Source of the DNA: a virus | DNA: 23,439 nt | Direction: 5' to 3' (one strand) | IMG/VR virus record: IMGVR_UViG_3300046003_003235 | Location: 1-23,439 of that record | Shown here: piece by piece, positions 5,710 to 21,685 of the stretch | Numbering within the stretch: position 1 is the stretch's first letter | Layout of the letters: each line of letters begins with the position of its first letter | Notes under the pieces: model-generated | Told to the model about the DNA's origin: nothing | The model's input: only the letters and a program-made list of their open reading frames with translations | Database searches by the model: none | Translations under genes and position numbers: made by a program

Positions 5710-6680
5710 ACGAAGTCACCCCGCAACTTAGCCTTGGTACTCTCAGGCAGAGCTTTGAACTCTTCCTCAGTCATCTGCGACACATTCGGCAAAGTGCCTG
5801 TCTGACCGGCCTTGTCGGAGTCCATACCGCTGTCCTTCAGGCTCCCCGGCTGCTTGGCTGCGGTAGCGAGGTTCTTCTTAACCTGCTCGGCCTTGCGGTC
5901 AGCGGTCTGCTTAGCTGCAGCAAGACCCTTCTCGTCGGCTGGCTCTTGCGGAGCCGTGCCGAAGCGCTTCATAACCGTGTTTGCGGCCTCGGTCAGTGCG
6001 TCAGACGGTGAGTAGCCCTGCTGCTGGATCAACGTGCGCTGCTTGGTCAGTACCAGCTCGACCAGATCAGCGTCGTAGACTTCAGAGTCAGGGTTCAGCG
6101 GAGCGTAGTCAGCTTCCAGACGTGCGATGGAGGCGTTGACGCGCTGGGACTCAAGGGCTTGGCTCGTGCGCTGAGTAACCATCGCCTCGGACTCAGCGCG
6201 TGCAATCTGGCGTTCGGACATACGAATGTCCTTCATCACCTTGGCTGCGCCAGCGGTGTCGCCGTCCAGCAACAGCTCAGCGTGCTTGGACTCAAGCGCC
6301 TCAATCGAAGCCTCAAGCTCGGCAACCGCAGTGCTCTGCTCTTGCTGACGCGAGGCTTGAGCCAGCTGGCGCTCTAGCTCGGCAGCACGGCGCTCCGCAG
6401 CTTCGCGTGCGTCACGCTCCTTACCAACAGCTTCGTCGAAGCGTGCCTTGGGAATACCCTTGCCGGTGAACTTGCCCTTCTCATCACGCGGCTGCTCTTC
6501 CTCAGGCTCTTCCGGCTCGAGCTCTTCGCTCGGCTCGGTTGGCTCCTCAGTAGGCTCTACAGGTTCTTCAACCGGTTCGGTTTTTGGCTCCTCAACAGGT
6601 ACGATCGAGTCACCCCGATCCATAGCTGCTAGATCAAGGGTTTCGAGGTCCGGTGTCGGCTGGATGTTGTCGATGTCCAT
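5706..6680 (-). CDS. Capsid scaffold protein
   Basis: The 324-aa product has the make-up of a phage scaffold. The first 65 residues are acidic, with imperfect PVEEP/PTEEPTEPSEE repeats. A DEKGKFTGKGIPKARFDEAV linker follows (about 67-86), and then a long Ala/Glu/Arg/Gln coiled coil (about 88-190). The C-terminus is basic and disordered, ending in a short helix (SQMTEEEFKALPE, about 300-312) that may contact the coat. It sits between portal and capsid genes, the usual scaffold position. AAGGAG overlaps the portal stop codon and serves as ribosome-binding site. Scaffolds are removed before packaging, so it should be absent from mature virions. Confidence 0.85.
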   Translation of the reverse strand: MDIDNIQPTPDLETLDLAAMDRGDSIVPVEEPKTEPVEEPVEPTEEPTEPSEELEPEEPEEEQPRDEKGKFTGKGIPKARFDEAVGKERDAREAAERRAAELERQLAQASRQQEQSTAVAELEASIEALESKHAELLLDGDTAGAAKVMKDIRMSERQIARAESEAMVTQRTSQALESQRVNASIARLEADYAPLNPDSEVYDADLVELVLTKQRTLIQQQGYSPSDALTEAANTVMKRFGTAPQEPADEKGLAAAKQTADRKAEQVKKNLATAAKQPGSLKDSGMDSDKAGQTGTLPNVSQMTEEEFKALPESTKAKLRGDFV

Positions 6681-8846
6681 TTACTGCTCCTTACTAACGG
6701 GATTAGCGGCTTGTCGTAGGTCATTGGCACGCTGAGTGGCCGCTTGCTGCTCAGCTTGCTGTTGCTTCAAAACCTGATTCTGTTGGTGCTCTTCTTGTTT
6801 AATCTGCTGCTGCTGCGCGTGCTCAGCTGCCTGCATCTGGAACTTCATCTCCATCTCTTGCTGCTTGAGCGCCATCTCTTCGCGCATCTGCTGCAGCTCC
6901 ATATCGAGGCGCTCGCGCTCCATCTGCAGCTCGGCCTGCATCTTCTGAAGCTCACCGCCCTGACCACCCTCGGCTTCTTGCTGCTTGAGCGTGGTGTCGG
7001 CACCCTTATGACCGGCGTCGGCCAAGGTCTTCTGAACCTGAGCTTCTTTCAAGGCAACGTCAGCTTCCTCGGCACGCTGCTGGCGCCGAGCACGAGCTTG
7101 AGCTTCCGGCGACTCCTGATCCCCGGTCATCTGCTTGACGATCTCCGCACGGCGCATCAGACGGCTGTTCTCGATCAGCACGCTGTCTGGAATCGGCAAA
7201 CCCAGCTCCTTTAGCGCACGAGCCTGCTCAAACTGGCTGTCTTCAAGGCTGTTACGGAACGGCGACGAGCTGATAACGATGTCGTACTCACCCAGCGTCA
7301 GGTCGTTCAGAATCTCACCGGTGGCTGAGTCGTACTCGTTGACCGTCACCGACTCAGCGCCACGTGTAACGTCGTCGTGCGTGATGCTGATCAGACGCTG
7401 CTCGGTGTAGTAGTCCTGAACGATGCTCAGGACGTTCCGAGCCAGAATCCAGTCCGTACGCTCAAGGTTGTCCACGACCTTCGTGTGGTTGACACTGGAG
7501 CGCTGCTGCTTGTAGGCGATAGCCTTAGCCGCCACGTCCTCGCGGTCATTGCCCTGCATGGAGTCAGAGACGTTGGAGATCGTCTTGATGTGCTCCTCAG
7601 CCTTGTAGCTCAGACGATCCAGCCCTGACGGTGTCTGATTCGGCTGAATCTTCTCTGGCGGCTGCGAGCCCTTCTTGTACTCGACCACTAGGCCGGTGGT
7701 AGCGCCCTTCAGCTCCAACTCTTCGATAGTCATGTTCAGCAGCGAGTCCTGCTCAACCACCCAGCCACTGTTAGCCGTGGTGTTCACAACGTGCAGCTCT
7801 TGGCTGGACACCTTGTTCAAAATCTCTTGCGGCCCGATCAAGTTCTCAACCACGCCCACAGACTTGCCGTAGCGGAAGTTCGGGAAGTACGGTACGACGG
7901 TGAAGTGCTTGAACGGCGACCAGTCGTCATGCAGAACCACGTTATCCGCCGTCACAGTCCAGCGAATCCGCTTGACCTGCTTCTTCATGGTGGACAGCGT
8001 GCCGCCAGCCTTCTCAAGCAGCTGAGCGATGCGGTTACGATCCCAGTCAAACGGAATCGGACGCATGTCGCCGGTCTCCACGTCGACAAAGTGTTCCTGT
8101 TTGTCCATCTTCCGGTACTGGCGCTCCAGAACACGGATATTTCGACGTACACCTACATCCTCAACCGTTCCGAAATAGCCCCCGACAGGAGTAGGACCAG
8201 CGAAACGATCACGGACACGCTCGATGGAGTCATAGCCATATGGATAGGCCGATGTAGCTTTGTCTTTAAGAATTTCAGCATCTGCGTCTGAGTAAATAAT
8301 GGCTACGTCCTGATACGTCAGCCATTTCGTAATAAACACGTCGTTCCAGCTGTCAGGATCGTATTCCTCGGCATCAGGGTCGATCACAACGTTCTTGCTG
8401 TTCAGCTGGACAATCTTTACCTCACCCTGCATAGAGTCCGTGAAGTCCAGCCGTACGTCGTAGAACCCTCGGCTGCGTACCAGACCGTCGCTGAACACCT
8501 CGGAGCGCACCCATGGCAGCTGGTTGTTCTGACTAATCTGCATCCACACCTTGCTCAGCGCATCAGCTGTGTCGGCCGGCGCACCGTTCGCCGGACGGAA
8601 CAGAACCTCTGTGCGGTTCTGAATCTGCTCGCCTAGCAAGGTGCTGATCGTTGGGAGAATCTTGTTAATCGTCAGTGCTGGGCGGTTCTGAAGCTGCAGC
8701 GCGTTCATATCTGCCTGCAACCACTGTTCTCCACTAACAAATTTATCACATTTATCCGCTTTGGCAACGAAGTCTAGGTGGCCTCGGTCACGACACCATT
8801 GGAAACGTAACCACTGCTGCTGAGCTAGATCATTGTTGACAGGCAT
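6681..8846 (-). CDS. Portal protein, P22 type
   Basis: This 721-aa protein has the length and pattern of P22-like portals. It begins with a helix containing WLRFQWCRDRGH, then DKCDKFVSGEQWLQADMNAL in outline, RPALTINKILPTISTLLGEQ (residues about 55-74) and NRTEVLFRP. Further on come VVIDPDAEEYDPDSW, FKHFTVVPYFPNFRYGKSVGVVENL in outline, and SNVSDSMQGN. The last 130 residues are an extended Gln/Glu/Met-rich coiled coil, as in the barrel of P22-type portals. Twelve copies form the DNA channel that binds the terminase. The ribosome-binding site is AAGGAA. Next on the mRNA is the scaffold. Confidence 0.93.
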   Translation of the reverse strand: MPVNNDLAQQQWLRFQWCRDRGHLDFVAKADKCDKFVSGEQWLQADMNALQLQNRPALTINKILPTISTLLGEQIQNRTEVLFRPANGAPADTADALSKVWMQISQNNQLPWVRSEVFSDGLVRSRGFYDVRLDFTDSMQGEVKIVQLNSKNVVIDPDAEEYDPDSWNDVFITKWLTYQDVAIIYSDADAEILKDKATSAYPYGYDSIERVRDRFAGPTPVGGYFGTVEDVGVRRNIRVLERQYRKMDKQEHFVDVETGDMRPIPFDWDRNRIAQLLEKAGGTLSTMKKQVKRIRWTVTADNVVLHDDWSPFKHFTVVPYFPNFRYGKSVGVVENLIGPQEILNKVSSQELHVVNTTANSGWVVEQDSLLNMTIEELELKGATTGLVVEYKKGSQPPEKIQPNQTPSGLDRLSYKAEEHIKTISNVSDSMQGNDREDVAAKAIAYKQQRSSVNHTKVVDNLERTDWILARNVLSIVQDYYTEQRLISITHDDVTRGAESVTVNEYDSATGEILNDLTLGEYDIVISSSPFRNSLEDSQFEQARALKELGLPIPDSVLIENSRLMRRAEIVKQMTGDQESPEAQARARRQQRAEEADVALKEAQVQKTLADAGHKGADTTLKQQEAEGGQGGELQKMQAELQMERERLDMELQQMREEMALKQQEMEMKFQMQAAEHAQQQQIKQEEHQQNQVLKQQQAEQQAATQRANDLRQAANPVSKEQ

Positions 8847-8855
8847 AGCTGTTCC

Positions 8856-9104
8856 TTACTGCAAAATAATTAGAGGTTTCTCTTCTTCAGGGTCTGTTGG
8901 CGTCGCTTCTTCCCGCGCCTCACGCATGGCTGTGTACAGCTCTTGCAACTTCTCCAGATCAATCCGCTCTAGCTGCTCACGACGCCATGCCCATGTCTGC
9001 GTACGCTTGTCGTACGCGGCTAGCCCAACGCGCTCACACTCCTGAGCCAAAATAACTGAATGAATGCCTGCGCCGATCAAGGCGTCGATAACAAGAGTCT
9101 TCAT
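8856..9104 (-). CDS. Small protein between TerL and portal, unknown
   Basis: I do not recognise this 82-aa protein. The N-terminal half is hydrophobic and mixed (MKTLVIDALIGAGIHSVILA). The rest is helical with many Arg and Glu (WAWRREQLERIDLEKLQELY in outline, residues 38-57) and an acidic tail ending in PLIILQ. It is the first gene after the promoter-like element at 9130-9151, so it leads the transcript that includes portal and scaffold. AGGA stands at good spacing before the ATG. Only 9 bases separate it from the portal gene. Confidence 0.6.
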   Translation of the reverse strand: MKTLVIDALIGAGIHSVILAQECERVGLAAYDKRTQTWAWRREQLERIDLEKLQELYTAMREAREEATPTDPEEEKPLIILQ

Positions 9105-9129
9105 AGTTTTCCTGTAAGAGTTGCGCGAG

Positions 9130-9151
9130 ATTGTATCAGAGTTTGTCAGAG
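9130..9151 (-). promoter_or_regulatory. Promoter-like CTCTGA tandem for the portal unit
   Basis: Minus-strand CTCTGA boxes at 9151-9146 and 9141-9136 are followed by TACAAT (9135-9130), the best -10-like hexamer of the series. The upstream edge touches the terL stop codon (9154-9152). The predicted start lies about 20 bases before the next ATG. Confidence 0.72.
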
Positions 9152-11794
9152 TTACGCAGCCATGTGTGATGAGCCCTTGTTACCAAGGTACTTATGCAAG
9201 TCGTCCTTCCAGCTCTTCGTCTTAGGCGTGTAGTCCTTCTGACGTGGTGCGCTCTTGGTCAGCGTGAGGCGTATAGCCCATGCAAGCGAGTCCACTTGGT
9301 CGTCGTGCTTACCTGCTGGGAAGTGGAGCATCTCCTTATAGAGCTCTGTCCAGTGGGTGCTCTTGTTGTCGAAGTAGACCTTACCGATCTGCATCCGACC
9401 CTTGAGCGGGTTCGCCCGTATCAACTTGTCCGTCAGTGGCTTAAGCAGCTCGAAGCTGGGGAACTGACGACGCTCCTCACAGCGCTTGGTGAACTGAAAC
9501 TCAATCGCCTTCCAAATCTGCCCGTCCTCGAAGCCAATCACATCCGGCTGGTGCAGCGCTGCGAAGTCCAATATCTCATCAACGATAAACCCGCCGTCCT
9601 GTATGCGGAACCGACGCTGGTCGAGGATGTAGACGTTGTCCCGATGGTCGACACCGATGCATGTGCCCACGGTGTAGTCCGACTCCTTGCCTTCCGAGAT
9701 CGCGAAGTCCCATGCTTGGTAGACGTACAGCTCTTCCCGCGCAGGCTGAGACCCGTAGAAACGAAACATTTCCTTGCTGAAGAAGTTACCCTCGTCCGGT
9801 ATAGGATTCTGCTGGTACAGCGCGTCCCACACCCGCTTCTGCCCACCGCCGATGAGGTTGTGCTTAATCCGCAGCATCATCTCTGTCGTGTAGCGCGCTG
9901 GGTGGATCGCCGTATTCTGACGACGGGTGAGCCGCGAGCCTGCGGGTATCGGCTGGCCGTCTGGTATCTCCTGAATCGTCTCGTCAGCGAGGATAAACTC
10001 GTCACCGTACTCGTTGATCGCCGGATACCGGATGATCTCGAACTTATCCGCCCCGTCGTCAACCAGCATGGCCTCCTGAATCCGACCAGCCCAGTCATCA
10101 GCGTGCCACCACGTATTGTGGCTCACCAAGCCGTTGGCGATGAAGTTCTCGGTGTCGTCTACCTGAACATCGAAAACTTCTTCCTCGCCAGCAAGCTCAA
10201 TGCTAACTATCTGTTCAGGCGTGAAGTCCGAGGTATTTTGCAGCGGCAAGTGCCACTGACTTAGTTCCAAGGTGTCCGATCCCCGCATTACAGTCGTTGC
10301 AGAGCAACCCGCGAACTTTTCCAGTGTCGTGACAGTGGTCGACAGCGAGCTTGTCTTTCCAATGTTCAGGCTGTCTGTCACGAGCGCTTCCGCAGATGGC
10401 GCACTTTCCACCTTGCTCGGCATACATTCTGTCGTAGTCCGCCGCTGTGATGCCGTAACGATGTTTGAGTCGTGCGTTGCGACGCGGTTCGTAGCCATCA
10501 CACTCTGTACGGTGCCCATCAGCCCATCGCTTCTTGTCGTAGTGGTGCGTGCACATTCCACGGCACTTGGCGGGTTTTTCGCACTCATCAACGGAGCAGG
10601 TTGATCCTTTCCACTTACCCCACTGGCCGGTAAGCCCACGATTTTGTGGGCCGTAGTCAAGCTTTTCACTCTTGTCCATACAAGCTCTCCGTCAGGAGCG
10701 ATGGTCAGAAACGGATGTCTCTGATTCGCTCTTACGATTTTACCAGAGTTCGTCAGAATTCGGTAGACTGAATCCCGACCACTTGACTTCAAAGCAGCTA
10801 CACGAGAGGAACTCAGCGCTCCGTTCTTGTACGTAGCTATCTTGTCCGAGGTCTTCAGAGTGTCAAGGCGCTGGCTGGTGCCGTCTGCCATAAGGACAGG
10901 TGTGTCGCCCGTCATGCACATCAGCCCTAGCACGCCGCCGCCGGGAGCTAGCCGTGTGTATGCAGTCGAGAGGTACCACTCCCAAGTATTGTCTCTAATA
11001 GTGATGGAATCCGCAGCCTCGATGTCTTTTACAAGGTCATCAAGCAGCAAAACGTGAGCGCCGCGACCAGTAATACCAGTACCAACGCCCGCAGCAAGAT
11101 AACCACCTCCTTTTGTGAGGTTCCAGTTCTCGACGGACTGGCTGCTTGGATCAAGCCGAGCATCAGGAAAAACAGCAGTATAAGCAGGGTCACGCATGAC
11201 ATCTCGGAGATACCTCGAAAATGAGAGCGATAGGGAGGATGTATGGCTACCGGCGATGATCTCCCACTCAGGGTGCTGCCCTAATATCCATGCAGGTGTG
11301 TGGCGAGAGCTGATCTCTGACTTTCCTGACCGTGGGGGCATCATCAACAGAAGACGCGGCGACTCACCTGCTTCAACTTGACGTACAAAACGCTCAATTC
11401 GACGACAAATATCCTCATGCACCCATCCAGCAGTGTATTTCGGTCTAAACCGCTGGATAAAAGGAAGCAACTTACGGCGACATAGCTCGCGGGAGGCAAG
11501 TTCAACATGCGGGTCTGTGCTCGGCGTGAAATGGTAAGAAGGAGGGTCGTACGGTAGCTCATATGCTTCATTTATCGCCTCTTGATCCTTGCCTTTCGGT
11601 ACTAGCGGGGTGGTGATTTCAACAGCATCTCGAACATCCACGTCTCTCTTCCGTGTTGAAACCCGTGCTTTTTTACTAGCTGGCGGAACCGGTGCATCTT
11701 CGACTTCAGGGTTATGTGTGGTTTCCTGTGCTTTAACGGTTTTGGTAGCTTCGTCACGTAGCTTCGCTTCCTTAAGTGTGGTGGGTCTGGTCAC
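9152..11794 (-). CDS. terL: Terminase large subunit precursor containing an intein
   Basis: The 880-aa precursor would splice to a 612-aa terminase. The N-extein has Walker A MPPRSGKSE (residues 152-160) and a Walker B-type VLLLDDLVKD (248-257). The intein (293-560) splits the ATPase coupling motif just before T561-W-W-H564. The C-extein has the RNase H-like nuclease with Asp696 (QAWDFAIS), Glu756 (IGFEDGQ) and HDDQVDS (830-836). The enzyme cuts concatemeric DNA and drives it into the head through the portal. Its ATG overlaps the terS stop as ATGA. The ORF is uninterrupted, so splicing, not readthrough, is needed for activity. An endonuclease gene is nested out of frame within the intein. Confidence 0.93.
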   Translation of the reverse strand: MTRPTTLKEAKLRDEATKTVKAQETTHNPEVEDAPVPPASKKARVSTRKRDVDVRDAVEITTPLVPKGKDQEAINEAYELPYDPPSYHFTPSTDPHVELASRELCRRKLLPFIQRFRPKYTAGWVHEDICRRIERFVRQVEAGESPRLLLMMPPRSGKSEISSRHTPAWILGQHPEWEIIAGSHTSSLSLSFSRYLRDVMRDPAYTAVFPDARLDPSSQSVENWNLTKGGGYLAAGVGTGITGRGAHVLLLDDLVKDIEAADSITIRDNTWEWYLSTAYTRLAPGGGVLGLMCMTGDTPVLMADGTSQRLDTLKTSDKIATYKNGALSSSRVAALKSSGRDSVYRILTNSGKIVRANQRHPFLTIAPDGELVWTRVKSLTTAHKIVGLPASGVSGKDQPAPLMSAKNPPSAVECARTTTTRSDGLMGTVQSVMATNRVATHDSNIVTASQRRTTTECMPSKVESAPSAEALVTDSLNIGKTSSLSTTVTTLEKFAGCSATTVMRGSDTLELSQWHLPLQNTSDFTPEQIVSIELAGEEEVFDVQVDDTENFIANGLVSHNTWWHADDWAGRIQEAMLVDDGADKFEIIRYPAINEYGDEFILADETIQEIPDGQPIPAGSRLTRRQNTAIHPARYTTEMMLRIKHNLIGGGQKRVWDALYQQNPIPDEGNFFSKEMFRFYGSQPAREELYVYQAWDFAISEGKESDYTVGTCIGVDHRDNVYILDQRRFRIQDGGFIVDEILDFAALHQPDVIGFEDGQIWKAIEFQFTKRCEERRQFPSFELLKPLTDKLIRANPLKGRMQIGKVYFDNKSTHWTELYKEMLHFPAGKHDDQVDSLAWAIRLTLTKSAPRQKDYTPKTKSWKDDLHKYLGNKGSSHMAA
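10215..10679 (-). CDS. HNH endonuclease, endonuclease VII type, nested in the intein
   Basis: A 154-aa protein read on the same strand as terL but shifted by two bases. Residues 28-46 form a Cys/His zinc motif (C28, C33, C39, C43, H45). Residues 74-150 are an endonuclease VII domain: RYGITAADYDRMY, Cys93-x-x-Cys96, VDHCHDTGKVRGLLC with catalytic-type Asp114/His115, Cys127-x-x-Cys130 and Asn131. The start is well supported: GGAG lies seven bases before the ATG, and a promoter-like motif sits about 58 bases upstream. It lies wholly inside the intein and ends shortly before block F. It probably acts as the homing endonuclease for the intein, made as a separate protein; cleavage of the empty terL site is inference. 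Confidence 0.9.
   Translation of the reverse strand: MDKSEKLDYGPQNRGLTGQWGKWKGSTCSVDECEKPAKCRGMCTHHYDKKRWADGHRTECDGYEPRRNARLKHRYGITAADYDRMYAEQGGKCAICGSARDRQPEHWKDKLAVDHCHDTGKVRGLLCNDCNAGIGHLGTKSVALAAAKYLGLHA
10737..10758 (-). promoter_or_regulatory. Promoter-like element inside the intein, ahead of the nested HNH gene
   Basis: Minus-strand TTCTGA (10758-10753) and CTCTGG (10748-10743), 10 bp apart, run into TAAAAT (10742-10737), a good extended -10. It lies within the coding sequence of intein block B (residues about 346-353). The expected start is about 50 bases before the nested ATG, so the endonuclease could be transcribed independently of terL. Confidence 0.62.
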
Positions 11795-13830: not shown

Positions 13831-13834
13831 CAGC

Positions 13835-13862
13835 ATCACACACCGCTTGCGCGGTGTGTGAT
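13835..13862 (+). terminator. 12-bp hairpin after the Ala-rich gene
   Basis: ATCACACACCGC pairs perfectly with its complement around TTGC. It starts four bases after the gene's stop codon. Only TAAAG follows, so it is a weak classical terminator but a stable mRNA end. It is symmetric and could act on both strands. Confidence 0.6.
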
Positions 13863-14042
13863 TAAAGCCTTGCGTCAGATTTCTATGGGCAAGACGTTGT
13901 AGTCCGTGTGGTGCTGGAAAATTTATTTCTCCGTCACCACATGCTACGGACATAACTGCTAAATTCTCCGAGACATGACGGTATGCCACGGGGATACTCA
14001 GTTATGCGAAATAAATAGCTGAGTTTTTGGCACAAAACACGT
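13863..14042. other. Gene-free stretch with nested inverted repeats
   Basis: No ORF with a plausible start was seen here. Inverted pairs include GTCCGT/GTGGTG (about 13902-13913) against CACCAC/ACGGAC (about 13935-13951), and ATAACTG (13952) against CAGTTAT (near 14000). An ACTCAG...CTGAGT stem followed by TTTTT ends near 14037. This could be a small structured RNA with its own terminator, or the left flank of the origin. Confidence 0.4.
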
Positions 14043-14363
14043 TGTACCGATGTACCGATCTTTTTGAGTTCAGTTGGGAAACCAAACATCCCTGTCTCCT
14101 AAACATGGGTCGTCGGTTTACATACTAATTCGGCCTTAAATTTCGGTACATTGGTACAATTATACGTATTACGTATATATATCAAGCACTTAGCTATGTA
14201 CCAAAGTTGTACCAAAGTTGTCCCGAATGTACCAAAATCCTGTGGATAACCTGTGGATAACCTGTGGATAACTTTTGTGCAGTGCAACACGTAAAAATCG
14301 CTGCCTGTGGATAACTTTCGTTTTTAAACACTGTACCGAAATTTGGACTAAGTTTCGGTACAG
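14043..14363. other. Putative replication origin: iterons, AT-rich tract and DnaA boxes
   Basis: Four exact TGTGGATAA sequences (complement of the DnaA box TTATCCACA) lie at 14241, 14252, 14263 and 14306; the first three are 11 bp apart. Around them are about ten copies of a TGTACCRAA-type iteron: 14043, 14051, 14197, 14208, 14219 (degenerate), 14228 and 14332, with inverted copies at 14142, 14150 and 14354. The 14332 and 14354 copies form a perfect 11-bp inverted repeat (14331-14341/14353-14363). An AT-rich tract (about 14157-14183) could be the melting element. This is the layout of an iteron origin that recruits host DnaA. The iteron-binding protein is not identified. Confidence 0.8.
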
Positions 14364-14395
14364 CCCAAATGCATAGCTTTATGCCATTTGGAACA

Positions 14396-14413
14396 CCCAC
14401 TCTTTCGAGTGGG
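14396..14413 (+). terminator. Hairpin with T-rich leader (cassette copy 3)
   Basis: CCCACTC pairs with GAGTGGG around TTTC, followed by CGATTATTTTCGTTTGTG. The tail is nearly the same as that after the 13466 and 15111 hairpins. It precedes the gene at 14454. Confidence 0.6.
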
Positions 14414-14453
14414 CGATTATTTTCGTTTGTGTCTATATCCCAAAGGAATAAGC

Positions 14454-14699
14454 ATGAACATGACTCTGTTACACGGTTCATTCGAGCCGCTATTGTACGG
14501 CGTAATAATCTTTCTCGGCATCTTCTCAATGATGTACAAGCTCAAGCACCAAATGTGGTTGAGCTTCTTCTCCGAGGTCTTTGTCTTCTGGCTTGTCTTC
14601 AAGCTACACGGCGGCACGATGCAAGGTGGCTTCGCAGCTACGGTTGCAGCACTCATCGCAGGTCTCGTGCTTCCTCTACTATTTAGGAGTAAGAAATGA
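14454..14699 (+). CDS. Small membrane protein (81 aa)
   Basis: The start at 14454 follows AAAGGAA at good spacing; an upstream in-frame ATG at 14388 would read through the hairpin and lacks a site. The 81-aa protein has hydrophobic segments at about residues 13-29, 36-50 and 57-76, so two or three membrane passes, and ends in RSKK. It lies to the right of the origin and overlaps the next gene by 4 bases. No family recognised. Early small membrane proteins in phages often alter the host envelope, but no specific role can be given. Confidence 0.7.
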   Translation: MNMTLLHGSFEPLLYGVIIFLGIFSMMYKLKHQMWLSFFSEVFVFWLVFKLHGGTMQGGFAATVAALIAGLVLPLLFRSKK

Positions 14700-19318: not shown

Positions 19319-21685
19319 ATGTCAACGATCATCAACTTCTTAGGCGCAGCCGTGCCTTTGACAAAGACTTTTTGTCTCGAAAAAAACGGCTCATTGACCA
19401 AGGATGCTTACCCCTTGGTCAGCAATGTAACCAGTTATGAGGAGGAAGTTTCTAAACCACTTGACCTATACAACGCCATCAAGCGTCATGCAGATCAAGG
19501 TCACTGTATGCTCAAGGGTCTGTTGACCCGCCCATTAGTTCAAGAGTCCCGTCGTGGGACGACCAAGACCAATGACAAGACAGAGGTCATCTGTCTGGAC
19601 TTCGATCGACATGAATGTGTTGATCTGGACGAAGAACTCGAACGCGTAGGTCTTGGTGACATCACCTACGTACTCCAATGGTCTGCATCACAAGGCACTC
19701 CGGGTACTGAAGGTACGATCAGCTGCCATGTGTTCATGCTGCTGGATGGCGAGGTACCTGCACCTGATCTCAAGGCTTGGTTGATGGGTATCAATCTTAA
19801 CCACTTCCGCGACACTGTGCGCTTATCACGTAGCAAGACTGTACTGAGCTGGCCGCTCGACATCACCACATGTCAGAACGACAAGCTGCTGTACATTGCA
19901 ACGCCGATCTTCAAGAACATGAAAGACCCGCTGAAAGCGCGTATCTCACTTGTTCCCAAGAAGCTAGCGCGTTTACCGGTTGAGCGCATCGGCACAACGA
20001 ACATCAACACACTCAAAGTCGCTGAACGCAAGCTGCTCAACGAGCTGCGTAAACTCGAAGACCTGCCCGCACGTACGGCTAAGACCTCATGGGTCGGTAC
20101 GTGCGAGATACAGAACAAGCCTGATGTAGCTACAGTCACAGATATTCGTGAAGGTGACGACTTCATCCGTTTGAATATCAACGGTGGAGACTCATGGGCT
20201 TACTGGCACGCCAAGGACAACTTTGAGTTGATTCACGACTTCAAGTCGGACACTTGGTACAAGACAAAAGAGTTCCTACCTGAATATTACTCAGAGCTGG
20301 TTGAGCAACGCAACTCTTTGGCAAGCACGCCGACTGATGATGGCGACTTGATCTTAGCGTTTCGTGATTTCAAAACCGCTGAGTATTACAATGGGCTATG
20401 GAATCCAGCAAACAACAAGTTGGAGTTATATCGTGCTAAGAACGAAACTCAACTCGATCATTGGATGCGCTCTCATGGTCGCGTTATTGGTGACTATATT
20501 CCAGTTTGGGAAATGGTCTACAACCCACTTGAAGACTGGGTGGTGGATGCCGAGCAACATCGTATTAACACTTTCAAACCCAGCTCATATTTTTACCTTG
20601 AGCCAAAAGCAGACGCCAAGTTCCCCGCGATCGAATACCTCATCAAGCACCTGCTCGGTTGTAGCTCCCAAGATGAAGCGTTGTATCAGCACTTCATCAA
20701 TTGGCTGGCTGTTGTCTTCCAGCGAAAAGGTACTTCAAATCATCCGATCACCTCATGGGTGATTCACGGTACTGAAGGTACAGGCAAGGGTTCATTCTTC
20801 AGCAAGGTCGTTACACCACTGTTCGGCTTTGAGAATGTCTTCGCCGCAGGTGTGAGCAATATCGAAGAAGGCTTCAACGGTTGGATGCAGAACAAGCTCT
20901 TCATTATGATCGAAGAGATTGACGTTGATGACTTCAAGGACAAAGGTCGCGTCAGCGCCAAGCTCAAGGTGTATATCACCGAGCCTAAGATTCCGTTCCG
21001 TCAAATGCGTCAGACCGCTGTGTTCATGGAGACGTACGCGTCGTTCCTGTTTGCTTCAAACAAGAAACAACCTGTACAGATTCCTGAGAATGACCGTCGT
21101 TACAACTGCGGAAACTACCAGCGCGACATGCTGAAATATCCGGGAGATGATGCCATCGAAGCTGAACTTGAAGCCTTTGCTCAATTCTTACTGGCTCACA
21201 AAGCTGATGCTGAAGCTGCTAACAAAGTATTGCAGACTGAGGCTCGTGAGCGTATTCAGAAGTTGGGCGTAACGAGTATCGACGAGACGTGCCGTCACAT
21301 CATCGAAGGTGACTTCGACGCACTGTGGATGTCGATGCCTGATGAACGACTGCTTAATGAATCAGGTATTCAGAACAAACACACTCAGGACGCGCAAGCG
21401 TACAGCGTGCTTATGAAACGTCTGCTGTTAGACGTTGTAAACGAACCGCGCAACGCACTAACGCGTGATGAGATGCAACTGATTCTTCAGTACAACGTCG
21501 GCAATATGCCTGAGAAGCCCAACAAGTTCACCAGCCTGCTACGTCATCACAACATTGAGACGAAGCAAGGCCGTCGTAATGGTCAGAAGACATACATCTT
21601 TGATGTTGAATGGAAGATCAGCGACGAGTTACGTGCTGAACTCTTAGGAACTCCAACAAAATCTAAAATACGGAAAATTAAATGA
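19319..21685 (+). CDS. Primase-polymerase/SF3 helicase fusion, replication protein
   Basis: The 788-aa protein joins two replication activities. The N-terminal part is an archaeo-eukaryotic-type primase-polymerase: ICLDFDRHE (91-99, metal ligands Asp94/Asp96), SCHVFMLLD (135-143, His137) and WPLDITTCQNDKLLYIA (178-194, Asp181). Residues about 270-470 are a linker with a D5-like look. The C-terminal part is an SF3 helicase with Walker A GTEGTGKGS (484-492), Walker B LFIMIEEID (527-535), motif C FLFASN (576-581) and Arg593/Arg594. It would open the origin, unwind DNA and lay primers. The ribosome-binding site can be hidden in a leader hairpin. It overlaps the next gene by 4 bases. Confidence 0.9.
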   Translation: MSTIINFLGAAVPLTKTFCLEKNGSLTKDAYPLVSNVTSYEEEVSKPLDLYNAIKRHADQGHCMLKGLLTRPLVQESRRGTTKTNDKTEVICLDFDRHECVDLDEELERVGLGDITYVLQWSASQGTPGTEGTISCHVFMLLDGEVPAPDLKAWLMGINLNHFRDTVRLSRSKTVLSWPLDITTCQNDKLLYIATPIFKNMKDPLKARISLVPKKLARLPVERIGTTNINTLKVAERKLLNELRKLEDLPARTAKTSWVGTCEIQNKPDVATVTDIREGDDFIRLNINGGDSWAYWHAKDNFELIHDFKSDTWYKTKEFLPEYYSELVEQRNSLASTPTDDGDLILAFRDFKTAEYYNGLWNPANNKLELYRAKNETQLDHWMRSHGRVIGDYIPVWEMVYNPLEDWVVDAEQHRINTFKPSSYFYLEPKADAKFPAIEYLIKHLLGCSSQDEALYQHFINWLAVVFQRKGTSNHPITSWVIHGTEGTGKGSFFSKVVTPLFGFENVFAAGVSNIEEGFNGWMQNKLFIMIEEIDVDDFKDKGRVSAKLKVYITEPKIPFRQMRQTAVFMETYASFLFASNKKQPVQIPENDRRYNCGNYQRDMLKYPGDDAIEAELEAFAQFLLAHKADAEAANKVLQTEARERIQKLGVTSIDETCRHIIEGDFDALWMSMPDERLLNESGIQNKHTQDAQAYSVLMKRLLLDVVNEPRNALTRDEMQLILQYNVGNMPEKPNKFTSLLRHHNIETKQGRRNGQKTYIFDVEWKISDELRAELLGTPTKSKIRKIK

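Follow-up and report, generated by a model that had tools for sequence, protein, structure and literature searches.

The window analysed here, a stretch of 23,439 nucleotides, spans from end to end an IMG/VR record that is itself a 23,439-bp fragment. It encodes the gene set of a podophage: portal (P22-like), major head protein, terminase split by an intein, exonuclease and PrimPol-helicase. Its nearest named kin are Pseudomonas phage KPP25 and allies (KPP25-like podophages); KPP25 has the same genome layout, a portal 44% identical and a PrimPol 36% identical to those of the window. The coding sequence of the intein in the terminase large subunit (10115-10918, minus strand) contains a 154-aa Endonuclease_7 (HNH) gene (10215-10679, minus strand), and because this gene uses another reading frame of the same strand, the stretch apparently codes twice.

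Our study focused on a gene-free gap of 623 bp (13831-14453), put at about 600 bp by the original prediction, and on the candidate origin of some 320 bases within it (Table 1). From left to right, the gap holds two right-pointing repeats, two left-pointing ones, an AT-rich tract, four right-pointing repeats and three DnaA boxes; a fourth box lies 43 bp beyond these, and an inverted repeat pair followed by a terminator-like hairpin come last. TGTACCRA occurs ten times in the window, nine of them within 14043-14362 (six rightward, three leftward), and the only outlier lies at 20254, inside the PrimPol gene. Together with a degenerate copy at 14219 (TGTCCCGAA), these nine account for the roughly ten repeats in both orientations reported initially. 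Exact DnaA boxes (TGTGGATAA) number four in the entire window, all on the minus strand. They were present as claimed, three of them at 11-bp steps, and so were the AT-rich tract and the perfect 11-bp inverted pair, which can be extended to 14-nt arms at 93%. The row of four right-hand repeats, the element ATCAAGCACTTAG and the hairpin had been missed by the original prediction.

Table 1. Positions of the features of the candidate origin, of the proposed initiator and of second repeat clusters in relatives
Feature	Location	Strand	Remark
Two tandem repeats, right-pointing, TGTACCGA TGTACCGA	14043..14058	+	
Two tandem repeats, left-pointing, TCGGTACA TTGGTACA	14143..14158	-	Left flank of core
AT-rich tract, proposed melting site	about 14159..14196	.	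Position with respect to the repeats shared by L088 and other relatives
Conserved 13-bp element, general form ATCAANNACTTAG, here ATCAAGCACTTAG	14181..14193	+	Inside AT-rich tract
Four right-pointing repeats (TGTACCAA x3, TGTCCCGA)	14197..14235	+	11-bp steps between the first three, 9 bp to the fourth
Three exact DnaA boxes	14241..14271	-	At 14241, 14252 and 14263, 11-bp steps
Fourth exact DnaA box	14306..14314	-	
Perfect 11-bp inverted pair, CTGTACCGAAA / TTTCGGTACAG	14331..14363	.	Arms 14331-14341 and 14353-14363
Terminator-like hairpin, between origin and next gene	14396..14413	+	Weak: 2 in region, 1.0 expected
Gene of an 81-aa protein, reads as small membrane protein	14454..14699	+	Beside or near origin in relatives
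PrimPol-helicase, DUF5906, phrog_24712, proposed initiator	19319..21685	+	
C-terminal winged-helix domain of PrimPol, residues 687-765, proposed repeat-binding part	21377..21613	+	Predicted model
Second cluster of the phage's own repeats, L420-L422 (G006)	29823-30232		
Second cluster of the phage's own repeats, KPP25	58258-58536		
Second cluster of the phage's own repeats, L423-L426 (G007)	69729-69953		

The clusters of DnaA boxes and of repeats are far above chance expectation. In 200 dinucleotide-preserving shuffles of the window sequence, DnaA boxes averaged 0.09 in total, with at most one per 100 bp, and TGTACCRA averaged 1.1 copies, with at most two per 330 bp, so that no shuffle reproduced either cluster. 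An Rfam search gave no family match.

Searching viral contigs with a PrimPol profile (A1) gave 80 loci; the PrimPol as a single-sequence query recovered no relatives from such contigs. The closest relative (L088), with a primase-helicase 68% identical to that of the window, keeps the left-pointing pair, the AT tract, the four tandem repeats, three same-strand DnaA boxes and the inverted group with their order almost unchanged, despite different genes flanking the origin. The origin is not adjacent to PrimPol in either phage, the distance being about 5 kb in the window and 3 kb in L088. Many other KPP25-like phages have clustered repeats of their own, mostly directly upstream of the PrimPol-helicase gene, with differing sequences that resemble drifted forms of one 7-8-mer (GTACCRA, GTTCCGA, CTTCCAA, CTTACGA, GTTACAC). 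The layout, two repeat sets flanking an AT-rich tract, is kept across relatives while the sequence of the repeats varies, which provides a natural series in which to test how primase-helicases change their DNA specificity. In an automatic scan upstream of PrimPol, 25 of 73 regions went beyond the 95% level set by random segments, and about two thirds stayed below the repeat threshold; hence, the repeats are common, yet undetected in some relatives. The repeats of one locus (L031, 1060-1400) were dropped as iterons because they seem, as read from the sequence, to belong to a coding repeat: their TTGGTGCAG units apparently encode a short cysteine-rich repeat protein.

About one in three KPP25-like relatives has the 13-bp element ATCAANNACTTAG, with the AT-rich tract on one side of it and the right-hand repeats on the other. 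With a spacer of 2 between its halves, the element has 20 matches in the 2.09 Mb of fetched loci plus the window, corresponding to fewer than 20 independent cases because certain loci overlap as parts of a single contig, and with spacers of 0, 1 or 3-6 it has none in the same sequences. All the matches whose context was read lie in repeat regions. Among 65 less redundant origin regions, the element is exact in 12, versus 0.15% of shuffles, and present with at most one mismatch in 21, versus 0.92% of shuffles. Two thirds of the origin regions are without it, and L088 has only a degenerate form. The element is a precise candidate for a melting or priming site.

Three relatives have a second repeat cluster. 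The clusters are about half a genome apart in KPP25 (26.4-26.8 and 58.3-58.5 kb of 64.1 kb) and in a second phage, G007 (37.5-37.8 and 69.7-70.0 kb of about 70 kb), and in L088 the second one lies 25.7 kb from the first, near the integrase, without DnaA boxes. Under the same criterion, the remaining genomes examined have one cluster or none; with a looser pattern, one of them (G010) has two weak groups. A change of GC skew had been put forward as a check, and we found no consistent switch at the repeat clusters. Like the window, KPP25 has repeats, here GTTACGA, around an AT tract within the same genome layout; it differs in the sequence of these repeats, in having no DnaA-box cluster and in its two distant clusters. 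KPP25 also has a dense array of GCCCAGC repeats (L082, 29863-30121).

Which protein might read these repeats? The PrimPol-helicase, named in the original prediction as perhaps the iteron binder, turned out to be the best candidate. It matches DUF5906 and phage primase families in a family search, and its helicase region matches that of the PrimPol of Nitratiruptor phage NrS-1 both in sequence (8.8e-53) and in fold (8.5e-21), the fold match to SaPI5 Rep being weaker. Its last 117 residues are modelled as a winged helix (pLDDT 90.6, order H-E-H-H-E-E), and the Foldseek matches of this domain are mostly winged-helix proteins, all of them weak (E > 0.001); a sequence profile of the domain had no match among solved structures. 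An NrS-1-like helicase region followed by a predicted winged helix suggests that PrimPol is probably the repeat-binding initiator, and covariation backs this in part. In all three covariation tests, the similarity of the repeats between phages rises with that of PrimPol. The winged helix alone stands out with hand-picked repeats; under strict automatic repeat calling it ranks top, with the primase domain scoring too; under loose automatic calling it is not singled out. Because of this last result, we infer, and do not assert, that the winged helix binds the repeats. Known initiators strengthen this inference by analogy: the C-terminal domains of SaPI Rep and Cch2 bind short repeats (PMC7581432), and a winged helix of P4 alpha binds origin repeats (PMC4234260). 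In L088, PrimPol (5998-9195) has in its helicase part an insertion of about 280 residues that reads as intein-like.

The layout of the region matches the origins of PICI/SaPI and P4 better than that of P1. PICI origins have an AT-rich region between two repeat sets (PMC6092414), and the systems of SaPI Rep and SCCmec Cch2 likewise have two sets of short repeats around such a region (PMC6092414, PMC7581432). Their initiators combine or pair a primase and a helicase, and the window PrimPol has both parts; they also have a C-terminal DNA-binding domain, to which the predicted winged helix may correspond. Unlike the window origin, which lies 5' of PrimPol at a distance of 5 kb, theirs are just 3' of rep, they belong to satellites or islands and not to a full phage with portal, major head protein and terminase, and the DnaA boxes are an addition of the window origin. 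P4 alpha, acting with ori/crr, also unites primase, helicase and winged-helix origin binding in one protein, but its primase is of the TOPRIM type (PMC4234260), whereas that of the window is of the AEP/PrimPol type; the repeats and the host group also differ. The two repeat clusters of three relatives are reminiscent of P4 in another respect. P4 has two cis sites. The PrimPol of NrS-1, the best match of the helicase part, starts at a specific site (PMC8718748). The window does not contain this priming site (TTTGGTTA), and the available excerpts of the NrS-1 literature mention no repeat array, whereas the window has one.

The original prediction had likened the region to a plasmid or P1-type origin. 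RK2 oriV and P1 oriR do join repeats, DnaA boxes and an AT-rich tract, but plasmid iterons are direct repeats of 17-22 bp (PMC4980987), whereas the cores of the window are 8-9 bp long and stand in both orientations around the AT tract. The proposed initiator is also different, a PrimPol-helicase, and no Rep of the RepA/TrfA type was found in the subset of proteins scanned in this fragment. The plasmid or P1 label is not supported.

The proposal that replication begins at 14043-14363 fared better. Given clusters beyond chance and a layout kept in relatives, with L088 preserving the elements and many others having the layout close to PrimPol, it is very likely that replication of this full-size phage starts in this stretch, from an origin with a PICI/P4-like layout. 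The best overall explanation, in which we have good confidence, is that this phage origin is read by the PrimPol-helicase. The protein would use its C-terminal winged helix to bind the repeats, and would assemble as a helicase ring, one on each side of the AT-rich tract. It would then open the tract and prime DNA synthesis within it, with ATCAANNACTTAG or its surroundings as a possible priming site, before the phage DNA polymerase takes over. Less certainly, host DnaA bound to the added boxes beside the right-hand repeats might aid opening or helicase loading in this branch of the family.

Two rival readings of the gap were weighed. The repeats might be operators of a phage transcription regulator, the region controlling the genes to its right. 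They are indeed short sites in both orientations within an intergenic gap, and in a few relatives (L096, L104) a small HTH gene separates the repeats from PrimPol. Yet, nine of the ten repeats of the window are confined to a single place, and not scattered upstream of many genes. Moreover, the region has only one promoter-like site, a weak one, which is fewer than in shuffled sequence, HTH genes are no regular neighbour, and an AT-rich core with a conserved element between repeat sets resembles an origin. We thus regard operators as improbable. A parS-like partition or segregation site of a phage-plasmid seems to us more improbable still, to the point of being hardly credible. Some centromere sites have clustered inverted and direct repeats, as does this gene-free gap, although none of our results points to such a site in particular. 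However, a search for partition genes found ParA in only one of 15 relatives, against a tyrosine integrase in nine of their 15 phage records (L088 and eight of the 14 others), plasmid records matched no more than the portal and PrimPol, and these distantly, and the adjacency to PrimPol in many relatives indicates replication. No integrase was found in the records of KPP25, phiA008 and four further relatives, nor in the window, which is a fragment. Some relatives lie inside bacterial contigs of 120-261 kb, which exceed the phage genome sizes met here and suggest integrated prophages. The integrases and the near absence of ParA argue both against the phage-plasmid state, which we rate low, and against the simply lytic phage that the original prediction had envisaged. 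The most likely function of the origin is to replicate the phage once infection or induction has taken place, rather than to maintain a plasmid.

The contribution of DnaA is harder to assess. L088 is the only relative that also has DnaA boxes in its origin array, with an additional single box just upstream of PrimPol, and no DnaA-box cluster was found in the remaining relatives; the boxes thus appear to have been added in the window/L088 branch only. Their conservation within a shared array suggests that they have a use. Yet, at least 120 stretches from viral contigs contain an exact copy of the two-box array TGTGGATAACCTGTGGATAAC, and similar arrays are found in what we take to be T7-like, T5-like and T4-like phages and micro-phages. 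We know of no need for DnaA in T7-like and T5-like phages. Arrays in such unrelated phages imply that boxes alone are no proof of DnaA-driven initiation and, with the restriction of the boxes to one branch, leave the role of DnaA unproven. PrimPol alone could drive the origin, the boxes binding or titrating host DnaA without starting phage replication, an explanation that we hold to be a serious contender at slightly less than even chances. It accommodates the relatives that bear repeats without a DnaA-box cluster, the box-free second cluster of L088, and the tandem CTGTGGATAAC arrays of at least 120 viral stretches, T7-like and T5-like phages included. It fits less well with the position of the boxes in the window and L088, within the repeat array and adjoining the tandem copies, an arrangement also found in RK2 oriV, whose DnaA boxes are important (PMC4980987). 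Boxes that are specific to one branch make it possible to examine directly whether host DnaA can be adopted by a self-loading initiator.

Tentatively, and with somewhat more doubt than belief, these observations can be extended to a family of full-size, often integrating podophages with PICI-like origins read by a PrimPol-helicase, having ATCAANNACTTAG as a core element of which we know no earlier description, sometimes two origins about half a genome apart, and one branch that recruits DnaA. The apparent presence of such origins in KPP25-like phages bears on the source of the PICI replication modules. As a separate observation, tandem arrays of the DnaA-box-like CTGTGGATAAC recur in many unrelated phages (L300-L379, phage records), some of them near terminal repeats.
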